A DNA stretch of 64,000 bases, from positions 1-64,000 of the forward strand of contig CANJLF010000010.1 in NCBI GenBank assembly GCA_947475295.1, read 5' to 3'. Source of the stretch: Fidelibacterota bacterium. Its GTDB lineage: Bacteria > Pseudomonadota > Alphaproteobacteria > Rhodospirillales > Rhodospirillaceae. Position numbers and translations under genes: made by a program. The notes below the pieces were generated by a model. The model worked only from the letters and a program-made list of their open reading frames with translations. It made no database searches and had not been told where the DNA came from. This document shows positions 41,199-63,363 of the stretch, piece after piece; within the stretch, counting starts at the first letter, position 1, and each line of letters begins with the position of its first letter.

Positions 41199-41538
41199 GG
41201 GAATCCCCGTGGCATGTGTTTGTTAAATATCCCAGTATTTCAGTGGGATATATCTATCAGGTTACGCTTAACCTTGGAAGCACTGTGGACTAAAACAGCG
41301 TCCGCCAGGAGCTAAATTCGCGCCTCATTTGGGCCCACCTTTGCGCGCAGATAGAAGGTCCCCTACGTAAGATACCAATACAATTTTGCCCGGATGCTGT
41401 ACTTAACGGGTACCGCTGCTGGCCCCCGTGACCAAGAACGGGATTACCGGAAATTAACAGGTCTTTATACATTTTATTAGTGATTCCCAGGCTTGATAAT
41501 GCTTAGTCCGGATTTGCTGGACGCTCGTGGAGAGATGG
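41199..41538. promoter_or_regulatory. Divergent regulatory region of glycan island
   Basis: No gene is supported in this 340-base AT-rich gap. It contains a perfect inverted repeat, ATATCCCA (41227-41234) and TGGGATAT (41244-41251), nine bases apart, close to the start of the leftward methyltransferase gene. This may be an operator. Promoters for both directions must lie here, but I cannot identify convincing -35/-10 pairs. Confidence 0.35.
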
Positions 41539-43074
41539 ATGTCTGAAAACACCGCCCTGGAGGTTTTGAAGCGGATCGAGACCGACCGCTTTCAGGTCTC
41601 CTATGTCCAGAACAACCGTTTTGGGCGTCGGGAAATCGTGCTTCTCGGCAAGGGCACCGGCAAGCACCGCGCTGAACATAGCAAGGTCAACATTCTGGAC
41701 GGCAACGGCGCGTTGATTGAAACGCGGCCGATCGACGACAAAATTGCGGAATTTGTCCTGAAGCACTTTGAAGCCCGCGGCGACACGGAATCTTTCTCGA
41801 TCTATGCGCGGGATCTGCAGAGCGGCGAGTTGAGCGGGCACCGGGCGCGCGAGATCGCGCCGGACTCCGTCAGACACAAACTGACTACCGAGGAAAAGAC
41901 TTTCACCGCGACCGGCGCCAAGCTTTGGTATCACAAGCCAATCTTCGACAAATTTCGCGACACGGGTTACGGCAGCATCATTCGGGCAACTGTGACCAAC
42001 CACCAGGTTTGTTCTTCGCGCTGCCAGTTCTGCTCGACGATTTCGCGGAATAAGAAGGACAGCGTCACGCTCGATGAAGCCATCGCCTTTGTCGATAGCC
42101 TTTACCACGAGCAGGCCCGCTTCAACCGCGAGAAGTTTCCCGAGCATAACGAGGCCTACCGCAAGGCCACGGGCTCGGACATTCGTTTGCGCGGTCTCAT
42201 CCTTTCCGGCGGCGGGCAGCCCAATCTCTGGCCTCATTTCACCGAGTTCGTGGAATACCTCGCGACCTTAGATATTGACCTCGGATTGATCACCAACGGC
42301 TTTCCGCCGAAGGTGCCGGAGTCTGTATACAAGCATTTCAAATGGATCCGCATTTCGGTGACCCCGGAAGATGCATCGCCGTTTTATCCGGGCGGCCGCT
42401 TTGACAAGCAGTATCTGCCCGAGACGATCAAGCATAACCCCGACGTTACGGTCGGCTATTCCTATGTCTTCGGTCCGTGGACGACCGACGATATCATCAA
42501 GCGCATCGCCGCTTCGATGGACGAGAACGGTTTCAACTACTGCCGCACGCTGACAGATTGCAATTTGAGCCGCGAGATGCAGCTGCTCGCCCACCGCGAA
42601 TTGGCCGAGCGCCTGCATCGCCTTGGCTTTGTCGATGCGATGGGCCGCCCTACAGGGCGCATCTTCCATCAGCTTAAGTATCACGGCACGCCGGCCGAAG
42701 CCGAAGAGCTTTGGGATAGCGGTCAATGTTTCTTGCAGCCCTACAACGTCTTCTGGGACACAACCGGGCACGAGGAAAACGGGCACTCCTATTGTTATGC
42801 CTGTGACTCCGTGACGGTTCTGGTGGATGCCGACGAAGAGGGTACGGTGTCGACGTCCGAGCGCAAGTTCAACTCCAGCAAATGGGGCACGGTGAAGAAC
42901 ACCGAGGTCTACCGGCTGTTCAACGAGCCGGTAAAGCCGTTCTTTGACCCGCGCAAGATCTGCACATCGTGCCTGTTTATGCGCAATAACCGCACGGTCA
43001 AAGAAATCATTACCGCTCCGGCCGATGCGACACCGCCCGATATGACCGGCCTCGACCACGTCAATTTCCCGTAG
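41539..43074 (+). CDS. Radical SAM protein with C-terminal cysteine cluster
   Basis: This 511-residue radical SAM enzyme has the CxxxCxxC cluster motif as Cys158, Cys162 and Cys165 (VCSSRCQFC), GLILSGGGQPNLWP as the GGE-like region and a TIM-barrel core. Additional cysteines at 397, 419, 422, 475 and 478 (YCYACDS, ICTSC) suggest a SPASM/twitch-like auxiliary [4Fe-4S] domain. Function is unknown; it heads a run with a methyltransferase, an isomerase, an oxidoreductase and a GT41-like protein, so a carbohydrate substrate is likely. ATG 41539 is preceded by GGAG six bases upstream; a GTG at 41527 is an alternative. Confidence 0.85.
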   Translation: MSENTALEVLKRIETDRFQVSYVQNNRFGRREIVLLGKGTGKHRAEHSKVNILDGNGALIETRPIDDKIAEFVLKHFEARGDTESFSIYARDLQSGELSGHRAREIAPDSVRHKLTTEEKTFTATGAKLWYHKPIFDKFRDTGYGSIIRATVTNHQVCSSRCQFCSTISRNKKDSVTLDEAIAFVDSLYHEQARFNREKFPEHNEAYRKATGSDIRLRGLILSGGGQPNLWPHFTEFVEYLATLDIDLGLITNGFPPKVPESVYKHFKWIRISVTPEDASPFYPGGRFDKQYLPETIKHNPDVTVGYSYVFGPWTTDDIIKRIAASMDENGFNYCRTLTDCNLSREMQLLAHRELAERLHRLGFVDAMGRPTGRIFHQLKYHGTPAEAEELWDSGQCFLQPYNVFWDTTGHEENGHSYCYACDSVTVLVDADEEGTVSTSERKFNSSKWGTVKNTEVYRLFNEPVKPFFDPRKICTSCLFMRNNRTVKEIITAPADATPPDMTGLDHVNFP

Positions 43075-49042: not shown

Positions 49043-50974
49043 ATGAGAAAATTAAGTTTCGTAAATCCGAATTTTCAGCAGGGGCCTAAAGAGCTCAACG
49101 CTTATTACCTGCCCTACAGCGCGGGTGTGCTGCTGAGCTACGCCTTCAAGGACCCAGAGATCCGTTCATCCTGGGAAATCGCCGACTTGATTTGGCGCCG
49201 CGACCCCATCGAGGAAACCGCGCGTAGGCTGGCCGATCACGATGTCATCGCGCTCAGCACCTACGTCTGGAATCACAAATACAACTACACACTCGGCAAG
49301 CGGATTAAGGAACTCAACCCGAAGGCCCTCATCGTCGCCGGAGGTCCTGAGCCGGCCATCACCGACCCGGAGCTCTTTAGAAAGAATCCGTGGATGGATA
49401 TGTGCGTGACGATGGAAGGCGAGATCACGTTCAAAAAAATCCTTGAGAATTTCGGCGGTGACTACTCAAAAATTCCCGGCATACTGATCAACGACAACGG
49501 CAATGTCGTGAACACGGGAACCTCCGCACGCATTGAAGTCTTGGACGATATTCCGAGCCCGTACTTCGCCGGCATCTTCGACAAGCTCATTGAACAGTAT
49601 CCCGACATCGAGTGGCACGGCACCTTGGAGACCAATCGCGGGTGCCCCTATTCGTGTACGTTCTGCGACTGGGGCAGCTTGACCTACAACAAGGTCAAAA
49701 AGTTCGATTTGGATCGCGTCTTGTCCGAATTGGAGTGGCTGGGTGAACGCTGCGGCTACCTCACCGTCACCGACGCGAACTTCGGCATGTTTGTCGAGCG
49801 TGATGACGTGATCATCGACAAGCTCATTGCCGTGCAACGGAAATGGATGAAGTTGAAGAATTTCTCCATCACCTGGGCGAAGAATCAGAAAAACGAAGTC
49901 GTGAACATTGTCACGAAGCTGATCAAGGAAAGCCCGTTTTACGGGGCCGGCCTGACTGTCAGCGTTCAAAGCATGGATACTAACGTTCTGGAGATCATCA
50001 AGCGTAAGAATCTTCAGCAGCACAAGATCGACGAGATCTTCTCGCTGTGCGCCAAGAAAAACGTGCCGGTATATTCCGAGTTGATTCTGGGACTGCCCGG
50101 CGATTCTGAAAAGACCTGGAAAGAATCCGTCTGGGCCGTGTTCCGGTCCGGCAATCACTACGGCGTGAACATTCTGCATGCGGCGCTTCTCGAAAACGCT
50201 GAAATGAACCTTCAGCAGCGCGCGGCTTATCAGATGGAGAGCGTCTCTGTTTATGACTACATGAGCGGAACCTACTCGGACGGCGAACTGGATGAGACCG
50301 TCGAGATTGTCATCGGTACGAAAGATCTGCCCAAGGACGCCATGCTCAGGACCATGGTTTGGAACAGCTTTATTCAGGCGTTCCACATCAATGGACTGAC
50401 GACTTACATCGCGCGCTACCTACACGCAACCGGAACCGATTACAGCGTGTTTTATGACAAGCTTTACGCGCACCTCAATAGTGAGGCGTGGTTCCAGAAA
50501 GAGTTCAGCGACACCAAGGGTTACTACGAGGAGTGGACGAAGAACGGCTACGTCCATCACGCGCCGATCGGCCGCGTTGAAGTCAGAGGCTGGAATTTGC
50601 ACAACCGCCTCACCTGGCGGATTTATAACGAAGGTAAAGTTCCCTACGTCTTCGAAGTCGTTCAGAAGTTCCTCGAGAAGGAATTTCCGCTGGCCATTTT
50701 GCCGCAGTTGATCGATTTCCAAAGATCCTCGGTTATCGAATACGAGAATTTGACGAGCCTGCCGCTGGTGCGGTCCTTCGACTACGACTTCTTGGGTTTC
50801 CTACATGAGGGAAGCCCCTTGAATGCGCGCGTGTCCTATTCTTTCGACACGACCGAAAACAAGGCGATGAGCTTCCAGATGTTCCTGGAGAACTTCTGGT
50901 TCGGTCGTAAGAGGAACTTCGGGCGCGCCAGGATTAACACTCTGGAGAAAATCGCCTCCCGCTCCGTTGCCTAA
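49043..50974 (+). CDS. B12-binding-domain radical SAM protein
   Basis: This 643-residue protein has an N-terminal cobalamin-binding-like Rossmann region (residues about 1-140, with DVIALSTYVWNHKY and LIVAGGPEPAIT) and a radical SAM core whose cluster motif is Cys201, Cys205 and Cys208 (GCPYSCTFCDWG). The long C-terminal extension of about 250 residues has no recognised domain. Class B radical SAM enzymes methylate unactivated carbons or carry out other radical chemistry; some act on sugars or natural products. The segment YSELILGLPGDSEKTW is typical of B12-rSAM proteins. Substrate unknown. Confidence 0.87.
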   Translation: MRKLSFVNPNFQQGPKELNAYYLPYSAGVLLSYAFKDPEIRSSWEIADLIWRRDPIEETARRLADHDVIALSTYVWNHKYNYTLGKRIKELNPKALIVAGGPEPAITDPELFRKNPWMDMCVTMEGEITFKKILENFGGDYSKIPGILINDNGNVVNTGTSARIEVLDDIPSPYFAGIFDKLIEQYPDIEWHGTLETNRGCPYSCTFCDWGSLTYNKVKKFDLDRVLSELEWLGERCGYLTVTDANFGMFVERDDVIIDKLIAVQRKWMKLKNFSITWAKNQKNEVVNIVTKLIKESPFYGAGLTVSVQSMDTNVLEIIKRKNLQQHKIDEIFSLCAKKNVPVYSELILGLPGDSEKTWKESVWAVFRSGNHYGVNILHAALLENAEMNLQQRAAYQMESVSVYDYMSGTYSDGELDETVEIVIGTKDLPKDAMLRTMVWNSFIQAFHINGLTTYIARYLHATGTDYSVFYDKLYAHLNSEAWFQKEFSDTKGYYEEWTKNGYVHHAPIGRVEVRGWNLHNRLTWRIYNEGKVPYVFEVVQKFLEKEFPLAILPQLIDFQRSSVIEYENLTSLPLVRSFDYDFLGFLHEGSPLNARVSYSFDTTENKAMSFQMFLENFWFGRKRNFGRARINTLEKIASRSVA

Positions 50975-52942: not shown

Positions 52943-53911
52943 TTGACTAAGGGAGTGAGAGGCGACAACGCGGTGCTTCTGCGCCGGTTGTACACGTCTC
53001 TTTATCGCATCCGTAGGGTCGAGGAAGAAATCGTGCGGATTTATCCGACCGATAAGATCAAGAGCCCTTCGCACATGTCGCTCGGCCAGGAATCGGTTTC
53101 GGTCGGGGTCTGCGAAGCGCTGCGCAAGACCGATATTGTCTTCGCGACCTATCGCAGTCATGCGGCCTACCTTGCCAAGGGCGGTGATCTCAAGCGCATG
53201 ACGGCCGAGCTGTACGGCAAAGCTGACGGCGCCGCGCGCGGCAAGGCCGGCTCTATGCATTTGATCGATATGTCCACCGGCATGATGGGGACCTCGGCCA
53301 TCGTCGGCACTTCGCTCCCGCTGGCGGTCGGCTACGCTCTCGCCGAACGCATGCGCGGCAAAGATACGGTCGTGGTGGTGTTTTTCGGCGACGGCGCCCA
53401 GGAAGAAGGCGTCTTTCATGAAAGCATGAACTTTGCGGCGCTTAAGAAGCTGCCGGTCCTGTTCGTGCTGGAGAATAACACCTACGCCATCCATACGCCC
53501 TTAGGGGCCCGCGTACCGGCCGCGAACTTCCGCGAACGCGCCGCAACATACAAAATGCCCACCCAATTGATCGAAGACGGCGACACTCTGGCGCTGCTGG
53601 AGGCCACCGAAGCAGCCGCGGCCCGCATGCGCGCCGGTGGCGGACCGGAGTTCTTCGAGGTTATGACCATGCGCTGGCTCGAACACGTTGGACCCGGCGA
53701 CGACCTGCACCTCAATTACCGCACCAAAGCTGAACTCGATGCCTGGAAAGCCAAGGATCAGGTGAAATTGATCGGCGCCATGCTGGATGATGCCGCGCGA
53801 GGCCAAATCCAACGGGAGGTGGAAGAGGAGGTGCAGGCAGCCTTAGCCTTCGCCGAAGCCAGTCCCTATCCCGCCGACCACGAATTATACGAGCATGTTT
53901 ACCATGACTAA
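52943..53911 (+). CDS. Thiamine-diphosphate dehydrogenase E1 component, alpha subunit
   Basis: This 322-residue E1-alpha-like protein has MSLGQESVSVGVCEALR near residue 50, the GKAGSMHL loop, and the ThDP/Mg motif GDGAQEEGVFHESMNFAAL running to ENN near residue 178. It is about the size of acetoin or pyruvate dehydrogenase alpha subunits. It starts at TTG 52943 with AAGGAG eight bases upstream. E2 and E3 subunits are not present in the window, so with the adjacent beta subunit it forms an orphan pair set among sugar genes. It could act as a carboligase or transketolase adding a two-carbon unit to a nucleotide sugar; this is inference. Confidence 0.87.
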   Translation: MTKGVRGDNAVLLRRLYTSLYRIRRVEEEIVRIYPTDKIKSPSHMSLGQESVSVGVCEALRKTDIVFATYRSHAAYLAKGGDLKRMTAELYGKADGAARGKAGSMHLIDMSTGMMGTSAIVGTSLPLAVGYALAERMRGKDTVVVVFFGDGAQEEGVFHESMNFAALKKLPVLFVLENNTYAIHTPLGARVPAANFRERAATYKMPTQLIEDGDTLALLEATEAAAARMRAGGGPEFFEVMTMRWLEHVGPGDDLHLNYRTKAELDAWKAKDQVKLIGAMLDDAARGQIQREVEEEVQAALAFAEASPYPADHELYEHVYHD

Positions 53912-54971
53912 GCTTGGGACTAAGCCTGGCCGCGAGATTTCCTACGCCGACGCGCTGTACGAGGCGGTGGCGAGCGAGATGGATATCGATCCGTCGGTCT
54001 TTGTCTTTGGATTGGGTGTTGACGATCCCAAGGGGATGTACGGCACCACCAAGGACCTCCATGTCCGCTTTGGCGCCGACCGCAATTTTGACACGCCTCT
54101 GTCCGAGGACGCCATGACCGGCGTCGCCATTGGCGCAGCCATCGCTGGCATGCGGCCTATTCATGTGCATCAGCGGTTTGATTTCCTGCTGCTCTGCATG
54201 AACCAGTTGGTCAACCTTGCGGCAAAATCGAGTTATATGTTCGCCGGTGCCGTCAGCGTTCCGATCGTCGTGCGCAGTATTATCGGGCGCAGCTGGGGGC
54301 AGGGCGCGCAGCACAGCCAAGCTCTCCATTCCATGTTTATGCATGTCCCGGGATTAAAAGTGGTGGCTCCCACCACGCCCCACGACGCCAAGGGATGCCT
54401 GATCGCGGCGATCCGCGACAACAATCCGGTGATTTTCGTCGAGCACCGCATGCTTTATGGCAACCGCGGTGTCGTTCCGGAGGAGTCCTACGCCGTGCCT
54501 TTCGGCAAGGCGCGTACGCTGAAGGAAGGTGACGACATCACCATCGTTGCCGTCAGTCACATGGTGGTCGAGGCTTTGCGCGCGGCGTCTCATCTCGAGA
54601 AAGTCGGCGTTCACGCCGAGGTCATTGATCCAGTTTCGCTAAGCCCGCTCGATATCGATACCATTATTCAGTCGTCGGCAAAGACTGGACGGCTTTTGAT
54701 TGTCGATAACGCCTGGACGGCCTGCGGCGCATCGGCGGAGATCGTGGCCCAAGTCGTCGAACATTTCCAGCAGACCCGGGCGATCCAGGTGAGGCGCATG
54801 GGCTTCGCGCCGGTGCCGTGTCCGACAACCAAGCCGCTGGAGAACTTGTTCTACCCCAATGCGCGGACGATCGCGGCTAAGGCCTATGACATGGTCAAAG
54901 GCGCCGACCAGCATTGGCTGCCGGAAGGGCCAGAAGCCAAAGAAATTCTGGAATTCAAAGGCCCGTTCTAA
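53895..54971 (+). CDS. Thiamine-diphosphate dehydrogenase E1 component, beta subunit
   Basis: This 358-residue transketolase-like beta subunit has REISYADALYEAVASEM, SEDAMTGVAIGAAIAGMRPI near residue 75 (with the ThDP-activating Glu in the related family), GQGAQHSQALHSMFMHVPGLKVVAPTT and the transketolase C-terminal domain LLIVDNAWTACGASAEI. It overlaps the alpha gene by 17 bases; ATG 53904 is an alternative start. It would form an alpha2beta2 tetramer with its neighbour. No E2 or E3 gene is nearby. Confidence 0.87.
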   Translation: MFTMTKLGTKPGREISYADALYEAVASEMDIDPSVFVFGLGVDDPKGMYGTTKDLHVRFGADRNFDTPLSEDAMTGVAIGAAIAGMRPIHVHQRFDFLLLCMNQLVNLAAKSSYMFAGAVSVPIVVRSIIGRSWGQGAQHSQALHSMFMHVPGLKVVAPTTPHDAKGCLIAAIRDNNPVIFVEHRMLYGNRGVVPEESYAVPFGKARTLKEGDDITIVAVSHMVVEALRAASHLEKVGVHAEVIDPVSLSPLDIDTIIQSSAKTGRLLIVDNAWTACGASAEIVAQVVEHFQQTRAIQVRRMGFAPVPCPTTKPLENLFYPNARTIAAKAYDMVKGADQHWLPEGPEAKEILEFKGPF

Positions 54972-55010
54972 GGGTCTTTCTCACAATGCTGTGTCTAACA
55001 AAGGTATCCT

Positions 55011-56297
55011 ATGGCGAAGCGTGATGAACTTCTGACGGCGGTCGAGCGTAGCATCCGTGCGTACTGCGAAGCCGAGCACGATTTCAAATTCAAGCCCAAT
55101 GACCCCGTGGTTAGGCTGCACGAGCCGACCTTCTCGACCGACGAGATTATGGCGGCGGTCGAGTGTTTGCTGTCGACCCAGGTCACCATGGGCCCCAAGG
55201 TCGTGGCCTTTGAGAAGGAGTTTTGCTCCGAATTCAAATTCGCTCACGGCGTCATGAACAATTCAGGCTCCTCGGCCAATCTTCTCGCCGTGGCCGCGTT
55301 GGCAAACCCGGTTGCCAAAGACGGCCTCAAGGCCGGCGATGAAGTCATCGTTCCGGCACTATCCTGGTCGACAACGGTTTGGCCGTTGATCCAGCTCGGC
55401 CTCGTACCTGTCATCGTCGATATGGACCCTGAGACGCTGAACATGGATCCGGAGCAGATCGAGCGCGCCATTGGTCCCAAGACCCGCGGCGTCATGGTGG
55501 TGCACGTTTACGGCAACCCTTGCGACATGGATGCCATCGTCGATATCTGTAAGCGCCGCAACCTGGTGCTGATCGAGGATTGCTGCGAGGCACTGGCGGC
55601 GACTTACGGCGGCAAGGCCGTCGGCACGATCGGCCGCGTCGGCACCTTCAGCTTTTATTTCTCGCACCACATGACCACCCTTGAGGGCGGCATCTGCGTG
55701 ACGGACGACTTCGACCTGGCTGAGCTGATGCGCATTCTGCGCGCCCACGGCTGGGTCCGCGAGACCGAAAACCGCGACGAATACCTGAAGAAATATCCCG
55801 AGTTCGACCCGCGCTTTTTGTTCGTCAATCTCGGCTATAATTTGCGCGCGACCGAGCTTCAAGGCGCCATTGGCTCGGTGCAGTTGCCGAAGCTGGCCGG
55901 TTTCGTCAACACGCGGCGCGAAAACACCGCCGCCTGGAAAAAAGACCTCGCGCGCTACAGCGAATTCCTGGCCTTCCAGAAAGAGACACCGAAGGGCCGC
56001 TCGTCGTGCTTCGGTTTCCCGATGACATTGACCGAGAAGGCGCCGTTCAAGGTGCAGGAGCTTATGGCCTATCTGAACAAAGCCCACATCCAAACGCGCC
56101 CGATCATTGCCGGCAATATGGCCCAGCAGCCGGGCCTTAAGCTTTATGCGCACCGCGTGGTCGGCGATTTGCCCAATGCCAGCTGGATCATGCGCAACGG
56201 CATTACCTTTGGTAATCATCAAGCCGTCGACGCCAAGGCCCGCGACTATGTGAACGGGCAGGTTGCCGAATTCTTCAGGTCCAAGGGCCTGTCATAA
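55011..56297 (+). CDS. DegT-family PLP-dependent sugar 3-dehydratase (RfbH/ColD-like)
   Basis: This 428-residue DegT/DnrJ/EryC1-fold protein has NNSGSSANLLAVAAL near residue 83, LIEDCCEALAATYGGK near residue 187 and FSFYFSHHMTTLEGG near residue 213. In aminotransferases the last block contains the PLP lysine, as in SFHxxKNxxxxEGG. Here it is replaced by His219-His220, the change known in E1 (RfbH; H220) and ColD (H188), which remove a sugar hydroxyl at C3. So this is more likely a 3-dehydratase than an aminotransferase. It follows the E1 pair and precedes a GDP-mannose-4,6-dehydratase homologue, the expected source of its 4-keto-6-deoxy substrate. Confidence 0.8.
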   Translation: MAKRDELLTAVERSIRAYCEAEHDFKFKPNDPVVRLHEPTFSTDEIMAAVECLLSTQVTMGPKVVAFEKEFCSEFKFAHGVMNNSGSSANLLAVAALANPVAKDGLKAGDEVIVPALSWSTTVWPLIQLGLVPVIVDMDPETLNMDPEQIERAIGPKTRGVMVVHVYGNPCDMDAIVDICKRRNLVLIEDCCEALAATYGGKAVGTIGRVGTFSFYFSHHMTTLEGGICVTDDFDLAELMRILRAHGWVRETENRDEYLKKYPEFDPRFLFVNLGYNLRATELQGAIGSVQLPKLAGFVNTRRENTAAWKKDLARYSEFLAFQKETPKGRSSCFGFPMTLTEKAPFKVQELMAYLNKAHIQTRPIIAGNMAQQPGLKLYAHRVVGDLPNASWIMRNGITFGNHQAVDAKARDYVNGQVAEFFRSKGLS

Positions 56298-56321
56298 GGG
56301 ACGCGGGGGGGTTAGACGGGA

Positions 56322-57341
56322 ATGGCCAAACCACGCGCGCTCATTACCGGCATTACCGGCATGGTGGGGTCGCACCTCGCCGAATACCTGATCGCCCATA
56401 CCGATTGGGATGTCTACGGCATGTGCCGGTGGCGCAGCCCGCTCGACAATATCGCCGGCCTTATCCCGCGCGTGAACAAGCGTGATCGCGTTCATCTGGT
56501 ATTCGGTGACTTGCGCGACACCCTCTCGATTATGGATGTCGTCGGCAAGGCCAAGCCAGACTATGTCTTTCATCTCGCGGCACAGAGTTTCCCGAAAACC
56601 AGTTTTGATTCGCCCTTGGACACCTACGACACCAATATCCAAGGCACCTGCCGCGTCCTTGAAGCTATCAAGCAGCACCGGCCTGACGCGATTGTTCATG
56701 TTTGTGCGTCGTCCGAGGTTTTTGGCCGTGTGCCCAAGGAAAAACTGCCGATCGCGGAGGAGTGTTCCTTTCACCCCGCCAGTCCCTATGCCATCTCCAA
56801 GGTCGGCACGGATTTGATAGGTCGCTATTACGCCGAGGCTTACAACATCTGCGCCATGACTACGCGCATGTTCACGCACACCGGACCGCGACGCGGCGAC
56901 GTCTTTGCCGAAAGCAGCTTCGCCAAACAGGTGGCCATGATCGAAGCCGGACTGATCGCGCCCGTCGTTAAGGTCGGTAACCTGAACTCGCTTCGGACCG
57001 TCGCCGACGTGCGCGATGCGGTAAAGGCTTACTACATGCTGGTAACAGTAAAGCCCATCGCCGGAGCCTATTACAATATTGGCGGCACCAGCGTGCGCTC
57101 GATTGGCGAAATCTTGGATTCGCTAATCGCGTTGTCGCCCAAGCGAAAAGATATTCGTGTCGAAGTCGATCCTGAGCGGCTTCGCCCGATTGATGCCGAT
57201 CTGCAGGTTCCGGATACAACAAAATTCACCGCCCATACCGGCTGGCGCCCCGAGATATCTTACGAAACGACCATGGGGGACTTGCTGGAGTATTGGCGGG
57301 AGCGCGTGCGCAACGAGGGCGACCGGTTCATTGTTCGTTAA
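56322..57341 (+). CDS. GDP-mannose 4,6-dehydratase family protein
   Basis: This 339-residue extended SDR has ITGITGMVGSHLAEYL near residue 9, HLAAQSFPKTSFDSP near residue 85, SSEVFGRVPKEKLP near residue 131 and the catalytic SPYAISKVGTDLIGRYY (YxxxK intact). These match GDP-mannose 4,6-dehydratases and their heptose-specific relatives (DmhA, WcbK), which convert GDP-D-glycero-D-manno-heptose to the 4-keto-6-deoxy form. Because GDP-heptose genes follow, a GDP-heptose substrate is the favoured inference, but GDP-mannose is not excluded. RR- and MFTHTGPRRGD blocks are typical. Confidence 0.87.
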   Translation: MAKPRALITGITGMVGSHLAEYLIAHTDWDVYGMCRWRSPLDNIAGLIPRVNKRDRVHLVFGDLRDTLSIMDVVGKAKPDYVFHLAAQSFPKTSFDSPLDTYDTNIQGTCRVLEAIKQHRPDAIVHVCASSEVFGRVPKEKLPIAEECSFHPASPYAISKVGTDLIGRYYAEAYNICAMTTRMFTHTGPRRGDVFAESSFAKQVAMIEAGLIAPVVKVGNLNSLRTVADVRDAVKAYYMLVTVKPIAGAYYNIGGTSVRSIGEILDSLIALSPKRKDIRVEVDPERLRPIDADLQVPDTTKFTAHTGWRPEISYETTMGDLLEYWRERVRNEGDRFIVR

Positions 57342-57396
57342 CGCCGGCATCGTTCACTATCGCGCAGCCGCTTAAGCTGAGCAGAGTAGGAAAAGC

Positions 57397-58452
57397 ATGA
57401 TTATCAGTCGTACGCCGTTCCGCGTTTCGTTCTTCGGCGGAGGCACGGACTATCCGACCTGGTATCGGGAGCACGGCGGCGCCGTGCTCACCACCAGCAT
57501 CAACCGCTATTGCTATATCAGCTGCCGCTTCCTGCCGCCGTTCTTCGACATCAGGAGTCGTATCGTCTGGTCGCAGATCGAGCAGGTCATGAGTAATGAC
57601 GAGATTCAACATCCCGTCGTCCGGTCGGTTCTGCAGTTTATGAATATTTCGGAAGGCGTCGAAATTCACCACGACGGCGATTTGCCGTCTCGTACCGGCC
57701 TAGGATCGTCGTCGGCTTTTACCGTCGGCTTGCTGCACGCACTTCATGCCCTCAAGGGGCTGATGATGTCCAAAATGGATATGGCGCGAGACGCAGTGCA
57801 CGTCGAGCAGGTACTGCTGAAAGAGGCCGTCGGCGTTCAGGACCAGATCGCGACGGCTTTCGGTGGTTTTAACCGCGTCGATATCAATCCCGACGATTCT
57901 TTTGTGGTGCGCCCCCTCATCCTGCCGCCGGGACGCCTCGCCGAACTGCAGTCGCACATTCTGATGTTCTACACGGGCGTTTCCCGGATTTCATCGGAAG
58001 TTGCTAAAGAGCACATCGCCCAGATCCCGCGGAAAACACCGGAGCTGCTTCGCATGCAGGAAATGGTCGATCAGGCCACCGCTATTCTGTCGGACGGTTC
58101 CGACATCAACGATTTTGGCCGGCTCCTGCACGACGCCTGGCAAATTAAACGCACCCTTAGCAGTAAAGTGTCTACCGGCTTTGTCGACGAAATCTATGAC
58201 AAGGCCCGTGCCGCCGGCGCGGTCGGCGGCAAGCTGCTCGGCGCCGGGGGCGGCGGTTTCATGATTTTCTTTGCTCCGCCTGAACGTCATCCGTCGATCG
58301 TCGCCGCCCTTGATAATCTTCTGATGGTGCCGATAGAGTTCGAGCACGGCGGCAGCCAGATCATTTTCTATGACCAGGAACACCACACACAAACCGCTTT
58401 GAAACGCCGTGATTTCGTGCGCTTTGGCGTCAATGGCGACCCTAAGGGTTGA
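57397..58452 (+). CDS. hddA: D-glycero-alpha-D-manno-heptose 7-phosphate kinase (HddA-like GHMP kinase)
   Basis: This 351-residue GHMP kinase starts IISRTPFRVSFFGGGTDYPTW, has the ATP loop LPSRTGLGSSSAFTVGLLHAL near residue 92 and GGKLLGAGGGGFMIFF near residue 275. These are diagnostic for HddA-type heptokinases, which phosphorylate C1 of D-glycero-D-manno-heptose 7-phosphate with alpha stereochemistry on the GDP-heptose route. gmhA and the fused hddC-gmhB lie 3 kb downstream, so the pathway is complete. A fucokinase role is possible but less likely. Confidence 0.85.
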   Translation: MIISRTPFRVSFFGGGTDYPTWYREHGGAVLTTSINRYCYISCRFLPPFFDIRSRIVWSQIEQVMSNDEIQHPVVRSVLQFMNISEGVEIHHDGDLPSRTGLGSSSAFTVGLLHALHALKGLMMSKMDMARDAVHVEQVLLKEAVGVQDQIATAFGGFNRVDINPDDSFVVRPLILPPGRLAELQSHILMFYTGVSRISSEVAKEHIAQIPRKTPELLRMQEMVDQATAILSDGSDINDFGRLLHDAWQIKRTLSSKVSTGFVDEIYDKARAAGAVGGKLLGAGGGGFMIFFAPPERHPSIVAALDNLLMVPIEFEHGGSQIIFYDQEHHTQTALKRRDFVRFGVNGDPKG

Positions 58453-58464
58453 GGAGCAGGCAGC

Positions 58465-59208
58465 GTGACACGCGGCGCTCTCGTCATTACCGGCGCAAGC
58501 CGGGGCATCGGCGCGGCAACCGCAAAGATGGCGGCTGCGGCCGGCTACGCGGTGTGTGTGAACTACAAGGATCGTAAAGCGCCCGCCGAGACGGTGGTTG
58601 CCGCGATCAAAGCGGCCGGCGGCAAGGCCATTGCGGTCCAGGCCGACGTGAGTGACGCGGCATCCGTGACGGCCATGTTCGCCGCCGCCGACCGCGAGCT
58701 TGGCCCCCTGACAGGCCTGGTTAACAATGCCGGCGTAGCGAGCGCGCGAACGCCATTCGGAGACATTTCCCCAGCGGTTTTCAAAGACGTGATGGACGTG
58801 AATGTGCTTGGCAGCTTTCTTTGCGCCCAGGCCGCAGTGGCCCGTATGTCGACAGCCCGCGGCGGGCGCGGCGGCGCGATTGTGAACCTCTCGTCCGTCG
58901 CAGCCAGGACCGGCGGCTTTCGTCTTGCTCACTACGTGGCCGCCAAGGGCGCCATTGTCAGCCTGACAAAGGCGATGGCTTTGGAACTGGCCGAGGTCGG
59001 CGTGCGAGTGAACGCGGTTGCTCCCGGCGTCATCGCGACTGACCAAAACGACCTGAGCGACCCGGAACGCGTCGCCAAGCTCAAAGCAAGCGTCCCCTTG
59101 GGGCGTGCCGGAACACCCGATGAGGTGGCGCACGCCATCATGTATCTGCTGTCCGATGCCGCAAGCTACATCACCGGAACCGTCCTGGAAGTCGCCGGCG
59201 GTCGCTAG
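58465..59208 (+). CDS. SDR family oxidoreductase (glucose-1-dehydrogenase-like)
   Basis: This 247-residue SDR has TGASRGIGAATAKMAAAAGY, NNAGVASAR, NLSSVAARTGG and YVAAKGAIVSL, so the Ser-Tyr-Lys triad is complete; the C-terminal ITGTVLEVAGGR is also typical. It starts at GTG 58465, supported by GAGGAG eight bases upstream, 12 bases after hddA. Close homologues reduce sugar or acyl ketones. Here it may reduce a 4-keto sugar. Confidence 0.87.
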   Translation: MTRGALVITGASRGIGAATAKMAAAAGYAVCVNYKDRKAPAETVVAAIKAAGGKAIAVQADVSDAASVTAMFAAADRELGPLTGLVNNAGVASARTPFGDISPAVFKDVMDVNVLGSFLCAQAAVARMSTARGGRGGAIVNLSSVAARTGGFRLAHYVAAKGAIVSLTKAMALELAEVGVRVNAVAPGVIATDQNDLSDPERVAKLKASVPLGRAGTPDEVAHAIMYLLSDAASYITGTVLEVAGGR

Positions 59209-59216
59209 CTCCTTCT

Positions 59217-60182
59217 TTACTGCGACAATGTCGGCCCAATATGTTTGCGCCACCACGCTATGGTGCGTTGGATGCCTTCATCCAGGCTCGTCTGCGGCGA
59301 CCACCCAAACATCGCTTTGGCCTTGCCGCAATCCAGACTGAGCGTTGTCTTGATGGTGGGCTGACTAAGATCATGCTCAATCCGCAACGTCTTTCCTGAC
59401 GCCGTGACGATCTTGTGAACCAAGTCCTTAATGGACACCGCTTGCCCCGCGCCGACATTGAGAAGGGCGAGGCCGTCTTTCTGCTGATCAATGGCCCGTT
59501 CGCAGAAATTGACGAGATCGTCGACATACAGCAGGTCGCGGGCTTCTTCACCCGTGCCCCACACAACAATGTGATCCTTCGCCGACAGCACTTTGGTGAT
59601 CGTGGCGCCGAAGACGTGACTGCGCTCAAGGTCAAATTTGTCGTGAGGCCCAAATATATTGGTGTGACGAATGATCGTGTATTTCGTCGGACCTATGCGC
59701 GAATAAAATTCGCACATTTTCTCGACATAAAGTTTTGTCCAGCCGACGCCGAAGTAGCGCGGATGAAGCTCCCGGCGCGGATCAAAGGCGTCTTCCGCCT
59801 GGGGCTCCTCCGAGGACTGCAGCATGACCGTGCAGGAAAAAAACAGAACCTGCCCGGTCTTCTTCGTGTGAGCGGCACGAAAGAGCAGCGAGTTCATCAC
59901 CGCGTTGTCGGTCACGTGAATAAAGGGGCGGGTGACAATGTCTTTTGACCCCGATGTGGTGGCGGCCGCCTGAACGACGACGTCGATACCGTCCAAGACC
60001 CGATCCACGTCCGCCGCGTTGGTCAGATCGGCTTGGCGCCAGGTCAAATTGGGGTGATCAAAAACCGGCCGTTTGTTCCAAACCCCGATAACTTCAAAAT
60101 CATCGCGGCGCGCTAGGATTTCGGCGACGTTGCGGCCAATAAAGCCGGTAGCACCGCAAACAAGTATGCGTTTCTTAGCCAT
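59217..60182 (-). CDS. NAD-dependent epimerase/dehydratase (GDP-fucose-synthase-like)
   Basis: This 321-residue extended SDR has ILVCGATGFIGRNVAEIL near residue 6, FFSCTVMLQSSEE, RHTNIFGPHDKFDLERSH, and DLLYVDDLVNF, which resemble GDP-L-fucose synthase. The catalytic segment reads RYFGVGWTKLYVEKMCEFY: a lysine is present, but the tyrosine is seven residues before it instead of four. The same GW(A/T)K arrangement occurs in the epimerase at 38580. It converges with the SDR at 58465. Confidence 0.82.
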   Translation of the reverse strand: MAKKRILVCGATGFIGRNVAEILARRDDFEVIGVWNKRPVFDHPNLTWRQADLTNAADVDRVLDGIDVVVQAAATTSGSKDIVTRPFIHVTDNAVMNSLLFRAAHTKKTGQVLFFSCTVMLQSSEEPQAEDAFDPRRELHPRYFGVGWTKLYVEKMCEFYSRIGPTKYTIIRHTNIFGPHDKFDLERSHVFGATITKVLSAKDHIVVWGTGEEARDLLYVDDLVNFCERAIDQQKDGLALLNVGAGQAVSIKDLVHKIVTASGKTLRIEHDLSQPTIKTTLSLDCGKAKAMFGWSPQTSLDEGIQRTIAWWRKHIGPTLSQ

Positions 60183-60258
60183 TCTCGTTAAACTCGCATT
60201 TATGGTGGTTTAAAAGGGATTTAAGGGCAGGCAGGGGCAGAAAAATGGTAGCAGGATG

Positions 60259-60264
60259 TATAAT
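60259..60264 (+). promoter_or_regulatory. Possible -10 element of TPR/methyltransferase-gmhA transcript
   Basis: A perfect TATAAT hexamer lies 74 bases before the ATG at 60338, in the 155-base gap between divergent genes. No -35 hexamer matches at 16-18 bases upstream. It is the best candidate for the start of the transcript carrying gmhA and the hddC-gmhB fusion. Confidence 0.25.
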
Positions 60265-60337
60265 TTAAAGAAAGGGATAGCGCCCGTCCCACCCTCGCGA
60301 TACGGCATACGTTAGACGATTTCCTTGGAAGGACCCT

Positions 60338-61444
60338 ATGTCACGGCCCCAATCGGCTGAAGCCCACATCGCGCTTGGAAATGCGCACGCCGGACGCGGC
60401 GATGCCACCGCCGCAATAAGTGCATTTCAGGCGGCGCTCAATGCCAAGCCCGCAAGCGGCGAAGCCGCCATGGCTCTCAACAGTATCGCGCGGTGCTACG
60501 CCCATATCGGGCGTTTGAATGAGGCTGTCGACTACGCAACTCAATCTATGTTGGCTGCGGCCAGTACGTCCGCGACGACATATTTGGCGACGCTTCTGTA
60601 TCAAACCGGTCGTCAGGGCGAAGCCGCTAAAATATTCGCGCGGTCCGGCGTTCAGGAGAACGCCAGCCCGACGCTGCTGATGTGTTTTGGACAACTGTTT
60701 ATTCAGTTGGAACAGCGCGAGATGGGCATCGCGGCCTATGATCTTAGTGCTGAACGTCGCCCCCTGCGGACAGTAAAAAACGACGCGCCGCCGGCGGCCT
60801 GGGCCGCAAACTCTCCCTACAGCGTTCAGAACCCCAGCCCGCGATATGCCGAACTTATCGAGCAATACAAAATTCTCCATCAACAGGCGCAGAGCAAGCT
60901 CAGAGGCCAAGGGCAGATGTTCGAGGGGATCGTCGGCTTTGCAATTGTCGCTCCCTATGTGCGGCGGTTCCGGCAAAAGGTCGGCGCCAAAACGATGCTT
61001 GATTACGGCGGTGGCCGGGGCGCGCAATATAAGTTGGGTGAAATCAAATTGGGGTCGGAGACGTTCAGCTCGTCCTTGGCTTATTTGGGCCTGCAAAACG
61101 CGGTATGTTTCGATCCCGGTTTCGACAGCAATGCTCCTGCCGACCAATACGACCTCGTCATATGCGTCGACGCGCTTGAGCACTGCGACAGGCAGGACCT
61201 ACCCTGGATTGTTCGGACGCTGTTTCAGAAGGCGAGCTCAGGCGTATTTGCGAATATTGCGTCATACCCGGCGGGCAAAATTCTGCCCAATGGAGAAAAC
61301 GCGCATTGCACCGTGGAAGACGCCTCGTGGTGGATGGGGTTATTCCGTGCCGTTGCCGATGAATTCCCCGCCGTTCCCTACGAAGTCATTGTCTCCAAGG
61401 ACCTGCAGCAAGCTGACCGTGTGGCTTTCGGGCGCGGGGTGTAG
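60338..61444 (+). CDS. TPR protein with methyltransferase-like domain
   Basis: This 368-residue protein has two to three TPR-like repeats in the first 130 residues (AHIALGNAHAGRGDATAAISAF and ALNSIARCYAHIGRLNEAVDYA) and a C-terminal region with TMLDYGGGRGAQYKLG near residue 219 and DLVICVDALEHCDRQDL near residue 271, resembling the SAM-binding motifs of class I methyltransferases. TPR-methyltransferase fusions occur in surface-polysaccharide clusters. Function is not established. It is probably co-transcribed with gmhA. Confidence 0.75.
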   Translation: MSRPQSAEAHIALGNAHAGRGDATAAISAFQAALNAKPASGEAAMALNSIARCYAHIGRLNEAVDYATQSMLAAASTSATTYLATLLYQTGRQGEAAKIFARSGVQENASPTLLMCFGQLFIQLEQREMGIAAYDLSAERRPLRTVKNDAPPAAWAANSPYSVQNPSPRYAELIEQYKILHQQAQSKLRGQGQMFEGIVGFAIVAPYVRRFRQKVGAKTMLDYGGGRGAQYKLGEIKLGSETFSSSLAYLGLQNAVCFDPGFDSNAPADQYDLVICVDALEHCDRQDLPWIVRTLFQKASSGVFANIASYPAGKILPNGENAHCTVEDASWWMGLFRAVADEFPAVPYEVIVSKDLQQADRVAFGRGV

Positions 61445-61536
61445 GGCTGCTTTCAGTCCCGTGTACGCTGGTGTTTAGACGTCAAATCCATTAGGAACAT
61501 GTGCAGCAAACAGAAATCAGAGGTCGGCGGAGATTT

Positions 61537-62121
61537 ATGAGTTCATCGTCTTCACAGCACAGCGCGGCAATTACCGAAGCCATCAATCAGAATGTCGCGA
61601 ATCTTGAGAACCTCAAGAAACATATCGCAGCGATGACCCAAGCCGCAGATATCATTATCGACGCCCTTAAAGCCGGCCGCGCGATCTATTTTTGCGGCAA
61701 CGGCGGTTCGGCGGCCGATGCTCAACATCTGGCGGCTGAATTGTCCGGCCGATTTCTCAAAAACCGCCGGCCCTTGCCGGGTGTTTCGCTCACGACCAAC
61801 TCCTCGGCCCTGACGGCCATCGGCAATGATTTCGGCTACGATGAGGTGTTCTCGCGGCAGCTGGAAGGTGTCGGCCAGCGCGGTGATGTTCTGGTGTCGT
61901 TGTCGACCAGCGGCAATAGCCCAAACGTTGTTAAGGCCATCGATGTCGCGCGCAAGCTCGGCATGAAGAGTATTGGCCTGACCGGTGAGCGCGGCAGCAA
62001 GCTGTCGGAAATGTGCGATATCTGCCTGCAGGTTCCCTCTGCCGCCACCCCGCGTATTCAAGAGATGCACATTTTGGTTGGGCACATTCTTTGCGAGCTG
62101 GCGGAGAACGCCGTTACGTGA
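61537..62121 (+). CDS. gmhA: Phosphoheptose isomerase
   Basis: This 194-residue SIS-domain enzyme isomerises D-sedoheptulose 7-phosphate to D-glycero-D-manno-heptose 7-phosphate. It has IYFCGNGGSAADAQHLAAELSG near residue 47, the SLTTNSSALTAIGND block and LSTSGNSPNVVKAI, plus the C-terminal IQEMHILVGHILCE with a catalytic Glu and His. Length is typical. ATG at 61537 follows GGAGA; an ORF 12 codons longer exists but lacks a ribosome site. It starts the heptose steps in this cluster. Confidence 0.93.
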   Translation: MSSSSSQHSAAITEAINQNVANLENLKKHIAAMTQAADIIIDALKAGRAIYFCGNGGSAADAQHLAAELSGRFLKNRRPLPGVSLTTNSSALTAIGNDFGYDEVFSRQLEGVGQRGDVLVSLSTSGNSPNVVKAIDVARKLGMKSIGLTGERGSKLSEMCDICLQVPSAATPRIQEMHILVGHILCELAENAVT

Positions 62122-62148
62122 GCGGACCTCGGTAATGAACGCCCGATC

Positions 62149-63363
62149 ATGAGCGTGAGCCGGCAGTGCGTCATATTGGTCGGCGGCAAAGGGTCGCGCC
62201 TTGGCGCCTTGACCCGAGAGCGGCCCAAACCCCTTCTTGCTGTAGGCGGGCGGCCATTTCTCAGCTACCTCGTTCAAGAAGCCGCGCGCCACGGATTTAC
62301 GCGCATTTTACTTTTGGCCGGGTTCAAGGCGGAGGTCTTCGCCGACGAGGTTGCAGCCTTGCGCGCGGCAGCGCCGGCGACGGTTGATCTCAAGGTTATC
62401 GTCGAGCCGGAACCGATGGGGACCGGGGGCGCCTTGAAATTCGCAGGCCCGCATTTAGACGAGACGTTTCTCCTCCTCAACGGCGATTCGCTGTTCGACA
62501 TCAATCTTCTGGATCTCAGTATCGCGTTGCCCGATGCCGGAGTCGCGCGTTTAGCCCTCAAGGCGCAGCCCGACGTCAGCCGCTACGGCACGGTCGAGCT
62601 AGCCGCGGACCGGGTTCGGAGGTTTGCCGAGAAGAGCGCCGCCGGTGGCCCCGGCCTCATCAACGGCGGGGTTTATTGGATGCGCCGTGCGATTTTGGAT
62701 CACATTGGGCCCGGCGCGGTGTCTTTAGAGACCGACGTTTTACCGACCCTCGCGGCTTCCAGCCGCCTGTTTGGCAAAGTTTATGACCGATTCATGCTGG
62801 ATATCGGTTTGCCGGACACGCTCGAACAGGCCCAATCCAGCATCCCCGCGCAAATGCGCCGGCCGGCGGTGTTTCTCGACCGCGATGGCGTCATCAATCG
62901 AGACGTCGGTTATGCCCATCGCTCGGACCAGATTGTGTGGGTCGAAGGCGCTCTGGCGGCGATCAAGTCTCTCAACGACGCGGGATACTACGTGTTTGTG
63001 GTGTCCAACCAAGCCGGCGTGGCGCGCGGCAATTACACCGAGACCGACGTTAAGGCGCTGCACGCCTGGATGGCCGAGCGCATGGCGGAGCAGGGTGCGC
63101 ATGTCGATGCTTTTTCATACTGCCCCTATCACCCCGAAGGCATCGTCGCGGAATATGCCAAGGCCTCGCCGCGTCGCAAGCCGGCGCCCGGGATGATCTT
63201 GGATCTCCTGCAAGCCTGGCCGGTGCAGAAGGCCGACAGCTTTCTGATCGGCGATAAGGCCATCGACGTTGAAGCCGCCGCCGCCGCCGGCTTGCCGGGC
63301 TATCTTTTTGAGGGCGGCGATCTCAGGGTGTTTGTTGCAGATCGTTTGGCCCGTCGTCCGTAA
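62149..63363 (+). CDS. Fused heptose-1-phosphate guanylyltransferase and heptose bisphosphate phosphatase
   Basis: This 404-residue two-domain protein has an N-terminal nucleotidyltransferase (about 1-235) with VGGKGSRLGALTRERPKPLL and LLLNGDSLFDINL, as in HddC, and a C-terminal HAD domain (about 240-404) with the nucleophile motif VFLDRDGVINRD, VVSNQAG, RRKPAPGM and IGDKAIDVEAAA, as in GmhB. It can thus convert D-glycero-alpha-D-manno-heptose 1,7-bisphosphate to the 1-phosphate and then to GDP-heptose. The GmhB-type zinc site is incomplete: CPYHPEG is present, but the later CxC is replaced by ASPRRKP. Confidence 0.9.
   Translation: MSVSRQCVILVGGKGSRLGALTRERPKPLLAVGGRPFLSYLVQEAARHGFTRILLLAGFKAEVFADEVAALRAAAPATVDLKVIVEPEPMGTGGALKFAGPHLDETFLLLNGDSLFDINLLDLSIALPDAGVARLALKAQPDVSRYGTVELAADRVRRFAEKSAAGGPGLINGGVYWMRRAILDHIGPGAVSLETDVLPTLAASSRLFGKVYDRFMLDIGLPDTLEQAQSSIPAQMRRPAVFLDRDGVINRDVGYAHRSDQIVWVEGALAAIKSLNDAGYYVFVVSNQAGVARGNYTETDVKALHAWMAERMAEQGAHVDAFSYCPYHPEGIVAEYAKASPRRKPAPGMILDLLQAWPVQKADSFLIGDKAIDVEAAAAAGLPGYLFEGGDLRVFVADRLARRP

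Follow-up and report, generated by a model that had tools for sequence, protein, structure and literature searches.

Near the end of a 64,000-nucleotide stretch of bacterial, probably alphaproteobacterial, DNA (the window, which belongs to contig C10 of its genome) lies a run of genes, 52943–63363, that we think would make a GDP-linked, carbon-branched 3,6-dideoxyheptose for a surface glycan. Two elements of this run are at issue: a DegT-fold protein encoded at 55011, in which histidine stands where aminotransferases carry the lysine for pyridoxal phosphate (PLP), and, just upstream of it, a pair of genes resembling the alpha and beta subunits of the E1 component of pyruvate dehydrogenase (PDH). 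In the pathway that we propose, the short-chain dehydrogenase/reductase (SDR) at 56322 would convert a GDP-heptose into its 4-keto-6-deoxy form, and the DegT protein, which would use pyridoxamine phosphate (PMP), take its amine from L-glutamate and rely on His219 as the catalytic base, would remove the C3 hydroxyl to leave GDP-4-keto-3,6-dideoxyheptose. With thiamine diphosphate (ThDP) as cofactor, the E1 pair would then decarboxylate a 2-oxo acid (pyruvate, most likely) and attach the resulting acyl carbanion at C4. The ketone there would become a tertiary alcohol bearing a 4-C-acetyl group, and the product, a nine-carbon sugar, may later have its branch ketone reduced by the SDR at 58465 or the one at 59217.

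We put the probability of this route, from GDP-heptose through the 4-keto-6-deoxy and 4-keto-3,6-dideoxy sugars to a 4-C-acyl branched nonose, at roughly 0.6. The case is built on homology, active-site residues, gene order, the lack of an E2 gene on the contig, and a linkage conserved across genomes; from these we infer the substrates, the donor, the position of the branch, its later reduction, and the glycan.

A DegT Protein Without the PLP Lysine

An earlier, sequence-only reading of this DNA had placed two open reading frames (ORFs) next to each other on the forward strand, 55011–56297 and 56322–57341, and had argued that in the first of them the pair His219-His220 replaces the PLP lysine. 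Both frames are there, and the replacement is borne out. The motif containing the pair is FSFYFSHHMTTLEGG; in phmmer alignments, its His219 is the partner of residue 188 of ColD (histidine in the wild type, asparagine or lysine in deposited mutants) and of the first histidine of the HH pair in E1 dehydrase, or RfbH, a name not to be confused with the E1 of PDH. ColD is GDP-4-keto-6-deoxymannose 3-dehydratase, E1/RfbH is CDP-4-keto-6-deoxyglucose 3-dehydrase, and we take His188 of ColD to be catalytic.

The replacement is no accident. When the window's protein is aligned with 20 chosen lysine-free relatives, His219 is kept in all 21 sequences and His220 in nearly all (Solidesulfovibrio has isoleucine there). 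These rows were picked from 48 lysine-free ORFs; the other 27, together with nine lysine-bearing ORFs, entered only a count of the PLP-lysine column, in which the 57 DegT ORFs of the fetched loci (labeled by L numbers; duplicates L001–L007 and L041–L069 excluded) divide into 48 with histidine (46 HH, 2 HI) and nine with lysine. The nine are remoter members of the DegT family. Could a lysine elsewhere in the chain have taken over the role? A conserved PLP lysine at another position was sought, but in two DegT alignments no column that is invariant, or almost so, holds a lysine.

Among solved structures, the protein scores 276 bits with ColD and 241 with E1 dehydrase, against 174 with the perosamine synthases and 128 with ArnB; its identity to ColD and E1/RfbH is 35–39%. 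Modeling the structure, a step that the sequence-only reading had suggested, gave the same neighbors: searching with the AlphaFold model (pLDDT 92.4, pTM 0.92) places E1 dehydrase (TM 0.92) and ColD (TM 0.81–0.84) nearest and ahead of aminotransferases, with E1 and ColD chains filling ranks 1–15 and GDP-perosamine synthase starting at rank 16. Against the RfbH model the score is 353.5 bits, under the cut-off of 423. Downstream of its active-site loop, E1 dehydrase also has a run of cysteines (RDCYCAPGCDNTCKK in 3bcx), presumably the site of its iron-sulfur function, and the alignment finds no cysteine at the equivalent place in the window's protein. Since this run has no counterpart, a ColD-like way of working, with no iron-sulfur partner, is expected. 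Judged by its sequence, then, the 55011 protein is a putative C3-dehydratase of the ColD/E1 kind that lacks E1's cysteine run.

Its nearest relatives are in L008 (99% identity), on a contig labeled Caenispirillum bisanense, and L009 (88%), on one labeled Candidatus Marinimicrobia. The latter label is unexpected at 88% identity and may reflect an error of labeling or binning.

An E1 Pair Beside the DegT Gene

The sequence-only reading overlooked what stands directly upstream, the E1alpha/E1beta pair at 52943–54971. Its two genes overlap by 17 bases, about 40 bases separate it from the DegT gene, and about 25 separate the DegT gene from that of the dehydratase. The closest solved relatives are human PDH E1alpha (159.5 bits) for the one subunit and the PDH E1beta 3duf (234 bits) for the other. 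E1beta keeps the TPLSE glutamate and the QHSQ histidine, which we take to be catalytic residues of PDH E1beta, and carries GRSWGQG. E1alpha keeps the ThDP motif, although as GDG..EEG and not as the GDG..NQG of canonical PDH, and it has a loop RWLEHVGPGDD where canonical PDH has RYRGHSMSDPAK; this loop, we assume, borders the PDH active site. Close relatives mostly share the signature; their loop reads HVGP..D (HVGT in L020), and their E1beta has GRSWGQG or GKSWGQG.

Might the pair simply be the cell's PDH? That is ruled out by the genome's own PDH on contig C8, which has a lipoyl-bearing E1beta and an E2. Two genes for the E2 partner (PF00198) are found in the genome, on C8 and C1, and none on C10, and there is no lipoyl domain in the E1 pair. 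An E1alpha with an E1beta, lacking E2 and lying beside deoxysugar genes, is the arrangement by which alphaKADH2 sugar-branching pairs are recognized, and it is the arrangement found here.

It would be wrong to regard every plasmid-borne E1 pair as a sugar enzyme: those of Phaeobacter and Pacificitalea (39–40% E1alpha identity) adjoin lipoyl and E2 genes and look catabolic. On a plasmid of Azospirillum oryzae (L036:5831-13310), a pair of a remoter type adjoins two lysine-type DegT genes, a SIS-domain protein and a PfkB kinase; perhaps the branch is subsequently aminated there.

Linkage Across Genomes

The survey of gene linkage was started from E1beta, and not from DegT, in 385 genomes of the window's class (taken, from its named relatives, as Alphaproteobacteria). 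The loci fetched were the 40 best E1beta matches besides the window (22 close and 18 remoter) and 20 controls at 40–46% identity, namely the window genome's own PDH and 19 hand-picked lower-scoring matches. A lysine-free DegT gene lies within 6 kb in 20 of the 22 close relatives (identity from about 59% upward), 17 of these having it within 1 kb, and also in all three plasmid loci (Azospirillum ramasamyi, A. lipoferum 4B and A. thermophilum); 23 of the 25 loci found through E1beta are thus linked. In the same 25 loci there is no lysine-type DegT within 6 kb, and a single E2 query detected no E2. A GHMP kinase or HddC-like gene is in the stretch in 17 of the 22 class loci and in the three from plasmids. 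Among the controls, DegT is found in 0 of 20 and E2 in 16. The Fisher test gives p 4.5e-10 on the assumption of independent genomes, an assumption that related genomes violate.

In the E1beta tree, whose supports were read after re-rooting, the window clusters with its close relatives (32 tips, support 0.967). A lysine-free DegT lies within 6 kb in 30 of these tips; eight of the 30 are the window itself or loci reached from the DegT side. This cluster is nested in a larger one of 51 tips (support 0.959), in which E2 was never detected. Nine DegT-found loci that hold E1beta are linked by construction (9/9) and were counted apart, and the Azospirillum plasmid and DegT-found loci possibly come from species that are also in the class sample.

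The linked DegT proteins are of several kinds: the 428-aa type of the window, a 390-aa Azospirillum type about 40% identical to it, and a Solidesulfovibrio protein at 32%, which adjoins a remoter E1 pair (49% identity). Because these kinds differ (as judged by identity), the linkage seems to follow chemistry and not descent from one ancestral pair. The conserved association with the E1 pair suggests that the 3,6-dideoxy-4-keto sugar is the intermediate that receives the carbon branch. YerE attaches its branch at the C4 ketone in the yersiniose pathway (PMC12247030, PMC4753412). Since a C3-dehydratase leaves that ketone free, the order of events would be 4,6-dehydration, C3 deoxygenation and then C4 acylation. 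In paulomycin biosynthesis, the authors place branching after glycosyl transfer (PMC4425429), so the step might also come later here. Two remoter loci, L107 and L093, combine E1 genes with a relative of the 56322 dehydratase (75% and 53%) and show no DegT in the stretch, which suggests that E1 pairs may also act on an undeoxygenated sugar. That the alphaproteobacterial loci, Azospirillum included, and the remoter one of Solidesulfovibrio make GDP-4-C-acyl (or hydroxyethyl)-3,6-dideoxyheptoses by direct action of the E1 pair on GDP-4-keto-3,6-dideoxyheptose is a claim that we make tentatively, at a little under even odds.

The Starting Sugar

The sequence-only reading took the neighbor of the DegT gene for a homologue of GDP-mannose-4,6-dehydratase (GMD). 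The 4,6-dehydratase type stands; the kinship needs amending, as the protein is nearer to the GDP-heptose enzyme 7us5 (340.8 bits) than to E. coli GMD 1db3 (140.8), a gap of 200 bits. With 162.9 bits (158.9 in a second scan), it misses the curated GMD cut-off of 415, and we rule it out as a GDP-mannose dehydratase. A true GMD, scoring 610.8 bits, is encoded elsewhere in the genome, on a different contig. This separate GMD and the closeness to 7us5 both support the earlier suggestion that heptose might be the starting sugar.

GDP-heptose-type genes had been reported to follow, and they do, at 57397, 61501 and 62149. The kinase at 57397 scores 137.8 bits against the HddA model NF049969 (cut-off 600). 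The fusion at 62149 matches GmhB 3l8e over residues 239–382 (124.6 bits) and 6jq8, a putative 6-deoxy-D-mannoheptose pathway protein, over residues 7–226 (97.9 bits). These likenesses make a heptose the likely starting sugar. Where the sequence-only reading went astray was in thinking a GDP-3,6-dideoxyheptose unusual: in Campylobacter jejuni its formation, by a C3-dehydratase using PLP and L-glutamate, has been established biochemically (PMC10440746, PMC10680097).

Weighing the Proposal

Several observations tell against the proposed pathway. Seen from the DegT side, the linkage is looser: 15 loci have a window-type DegT (at least 49% identity), nine of these contain an E1 pair, and one of the nine, L018, holds only a divergent pair at about 30%. 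In favor of the proposal, L013, which has no E1 within 10 kb of its DegT, has a pair of near-identical signature (KEHVGTGED) about 11 kb off on the same contig, and the genome of L016 carries such a pair on some contig. Searches of the L024 and L028 genomes gave E1beta matches of 38–45% only, those of L008 and L019, where the DegT gene is at a contig end, gave no close E1beta match, and none of the seven lysine-free loci at 41–44% (L021–L023, L025–L027 and L029) has an E1 pair in the stretch. From the E1beta side, two of the 22 close relatives, L071 and L089, have no DegT in the stretch (E1beta is near a contig end in two of the 22, L071 and L091), and of the 18 remoter loci (42–52% identity), L105 alone shows a lysine-free DegT at a distance of 6 kb or less, accompanied by a lysine-type one. 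The absence of E2 outside the window's own genome depends on one query, which also found none in four of the 20 controls and in further loci, among them L104, L106, L108 and L109. Two Streptomyces plasmids have E1 pairs of very similar signature with no sugar genes seen nearby (L037:8986-11032 and L040:6997-9029), which means that the signature by itself is no proof of sugar branching. (The L040 pair sits among ORFs that, judged by eye from their starts, resemble a transporter, an adenylation enzyme and an acyl-CoA dehydrogenase.) Finally, the HddA, HddC and GmhB assignments fall under the NCBIfam equivalog cut-offs, so that "GDP-heptose" is strongly indicated and not proved, and the genome's true GMD makes GDP-4-keto-6-deoxymannose a possible alternative substrate.

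What else might these genes do? They could stop at an unbranched GDP-3,6-dideoxyheptose of the kind known from C. jejuni HS:5/HS:11, with an SDR reducing the C4 ketone and the E1 pair serving some other purpose. The same sequence of C4,6-dehydratase and C3-dehydratase is proven in that organism, two reductase-like SDRs lie downstream, and L024 and L028 combine a window-type DegT with no close E1 pair; we nevertheless regard this as a minor contender, given that the E1 pair belongs to the same tight gene run and that the linkage recurs in so many of the loci found through E1beta. Somewhat less probable again is a branched octose, with GDP-4-keto-3,6-dideoxymannose as acceptor and a yersiniose-like GDP-sugar as product. 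ColD acts on the mannose compound that precedes this acceptor, GDP-4-keto-6-deoxymannose, and a true GMD is encoded in the genome, but the adjoining dehydratase is nearest the GDP-heptose type, GHMP kinase or HddC-like genes recur in the related loci, and the C. jejuni C3-dehydratase accepts a heptose substrate.

We consider it improbable that the E1 pair supplies acyl groups to some other process, be it an acylation or a step like those of natural products, with its linkage to DegT marking no more than a common surface-glycan island. The Streptomyces plasmid pairs would fit such a role; the specificity of the linkage for lysine-free DegT, with no lysine-type gene within 6 kb in any of the 25 loci, does not. 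We give almost no weight to the idea that the DegT protein is inactive or a transaminase: fold and Pfam family are indeed common to aminotransferases, but the PLP lysine is missing, His219 is invariant, and the nearest structures are dehydratases. For want of that lysine we reject the transaminase reading.

Other Genes of the Run and Its Surroundings

Besides the genes already discussed, the run contains two further SDRs and a TPR protein (Table 1). Homologues of the SDR at 58465 occur in some related loci. The family of the SDR at 59217 recurrently partners the window-type DegT; in nine of nine aligned members, the position four residues ahead of the conserved lysine is not tyrosine, and a tyrosine is found seven residues ahead of it instead.

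Table 1. Predicted genes of the 52943–63363 run
Feature	Position	Strand	Basis or detail
E1alpha-like subunit (ThDP enzyme, PDH E1 alpha fold)	52943..53911	+	Pfam E1_dh 206 bits
E1beta-like subunit	53895..54971	+	Pfam Transket_pyr + Transketolase_C
Putative lysine-free DegT-fold C3-dehydratase (ColD/E1-like)	55011..56297	+	428 aa; His219 replaces the PLP lysine
GDP-heptose 4,6-dehydratase homologue (extended SDR)	56322..57341	+	339 aa; PDB 7us5 340.8 bits
GHMP kinase, HddA-like (heptose 7-phosphate kinase)	57397..58452	+	4usm (putative sugar kinase), 3k85 (heptose kinase), 138–139 bits
FabG-like SDR reductase, candidate branch/ring ketoreductase	58465..59208	+	NCBIfam SDR families
Fcl-like extended SDR, atypical active site	59217..60182	-	best PDB match GDP-L-fucose synthase, 102 bits
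TPR protein, weak methyltransferase-domain match	60338..61444	+	Pfam TPR; Methyltransf_23 below cut-off
GmhA, sedoheptulose 7-phosphate isomerase	61501..62121	+	TIGR00441 209.5 bits, cut-off 209.45
HddC-like nucleotidyltransferase fused to GmhB-like phosphatase	62149..63363	+	matches of each half

Upstream, 49043–50974 (+) encodes a B12-binding radical SAM protein whose nearest NCBIfam model is that of the KedN5 methylcobalamin C-methyltransferases (206.7 bits, cut-off 700). Relatives at 32–33% identity are in L011, L015, L018, L024 and L028, and another ORF family, B12/radical SAM-like by eye, recurs in 13 E1 loci. C-methylation of the sugar or of its branch is a possible role, and in the loci that have such cobalamin radical SAM enzymes the branch might be lengthened in this way. 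Farther upstream, 41527–43074 (+) encodes another radical SAM protein, with a weak family assignment.

Beyond the window, C10 continues (L139:337-17579) with genes whose translations look, by eye, like type II secretion or pseudopilin components, together with TPR glycosyltransferase-like proteins. Past the sugar genes, this region also seems to encode an exported protein (L139:12638-14089). A secreted protein might be what carries the sugar.

Significance and Comparison with Known Systems

A plain dideoxyheptose is not new; more interesting is the coupling of the E1 pair to this pathway, which suggests branched nonoses. Our literature searches, judged by titles and opening lines of abstracts and covering open-licence PubMed Central papers, turned up no E1-type pair described from loci for GDP-heptose or envelope sugars (an in silico survey cited in PMC12247030 may list some). 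They likewise listed nothing pertinent on branched heptoses, on nonoses or on O-antigen clusters with an E1-type enzyme. If the branched-nonose pathway is right, PMP-dependent C3 deoxygenation and ThDP-dependent carbon branching would be joined on one GDP-heptose. An alphaKADH2-type enzyme would be acting on a GDP-sugar for the cell envelope, in parallel to YerE, which belongs to a different ThDP superfamily. E1-type branching would thereby extend to the envelope, and the pairs would become new candidates for carbon–carbon bond-forming enzymes that accept ketones. The predicted class of nine-carbon branched sugars can be looked for in a cultured carrier, for instance A. lipoferum 4B, a plant-associated soil bacterium with its E1alpha/E1beta genes on plasmid AZO_p6.

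How does this proposed system relate to those already known? ColD and E1/RfbH share with the DegT protein the fold, the histidine in place of the PLP lysine, and the context of a 4-keto-6-deoxy NDP-sugar; they differ from it in sequence, and the window's protein combines an E1-like length with the lack of the cysteine run and a GDP-heptose-type setting. PDH E1 has the fold of the window's pair, its ThDP motif and residues matching its catalytic ones, whereas the pair has an altered E1alpha loop, no lipoyl domain, and no E2 gene on its contig.

The C. jejuni HS:5/HS:11 systems resemble ours in their GDP-heptose genes, 4,6-dehydratase and PLP/glutamate-dependent C3-dehydratase (PMC10440746). They differ in that the C. 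jejuni pathways continue through a C5-epimerase and a C4-reductase (PMC10440746, PMC10680097), and the words "branched," "thiamin" and "pyruvate" have no occurrence in the main text of PMC10680097.

On the branching side, the task proposed for the PDH-like pairs AviB1/AviB2 of avilamycin and Pau11/Pau12 of paulomycin is the attachment of C2 branches to keto sugars; Pau11 (325 aa) and Pau12 (345 aa) resemble the window's pair in size, and the paulomycin cluster was confirmed by inactivating two genes, pau11 among them (PMC4425429, PMC4753412). KbDH-alpha/beta joins pyruvate to cyclic ketones in vitro, and for aldgamycin the branching role is backed by feeding and knock-out experiments (PMC12247030). 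By analogy with these alphaKADH2 pairs, which are likewise PDH E1-like alpha and beta genes, the window's pair would transfer a two-carbon unit to a keto sugar; the known pairs, however, lie in specialized-metabolite clusters, and those described here lie in putative envelope-sugar loci with GDP-heptose-type genes. One review (PMC12247030) credits branching in lipopolysaccharide (LPS) to YerE-like enzymes and places E1-type pairs mainly with specialized natural products. The YerE-like decarboxylases of yersiniose and erwiniose also perform a ThDP-dependent carbon branching of a 3,6-dideoxy-4-keto NDP-sugar for LPS, but YerE consists of one flavoprotein chain from the decarboxylase superfamily, with a CDP-hexose as its substrate, and here we would have a two-gene enzyme of the E1 type acting, as we infer, on a GDP-heptose.

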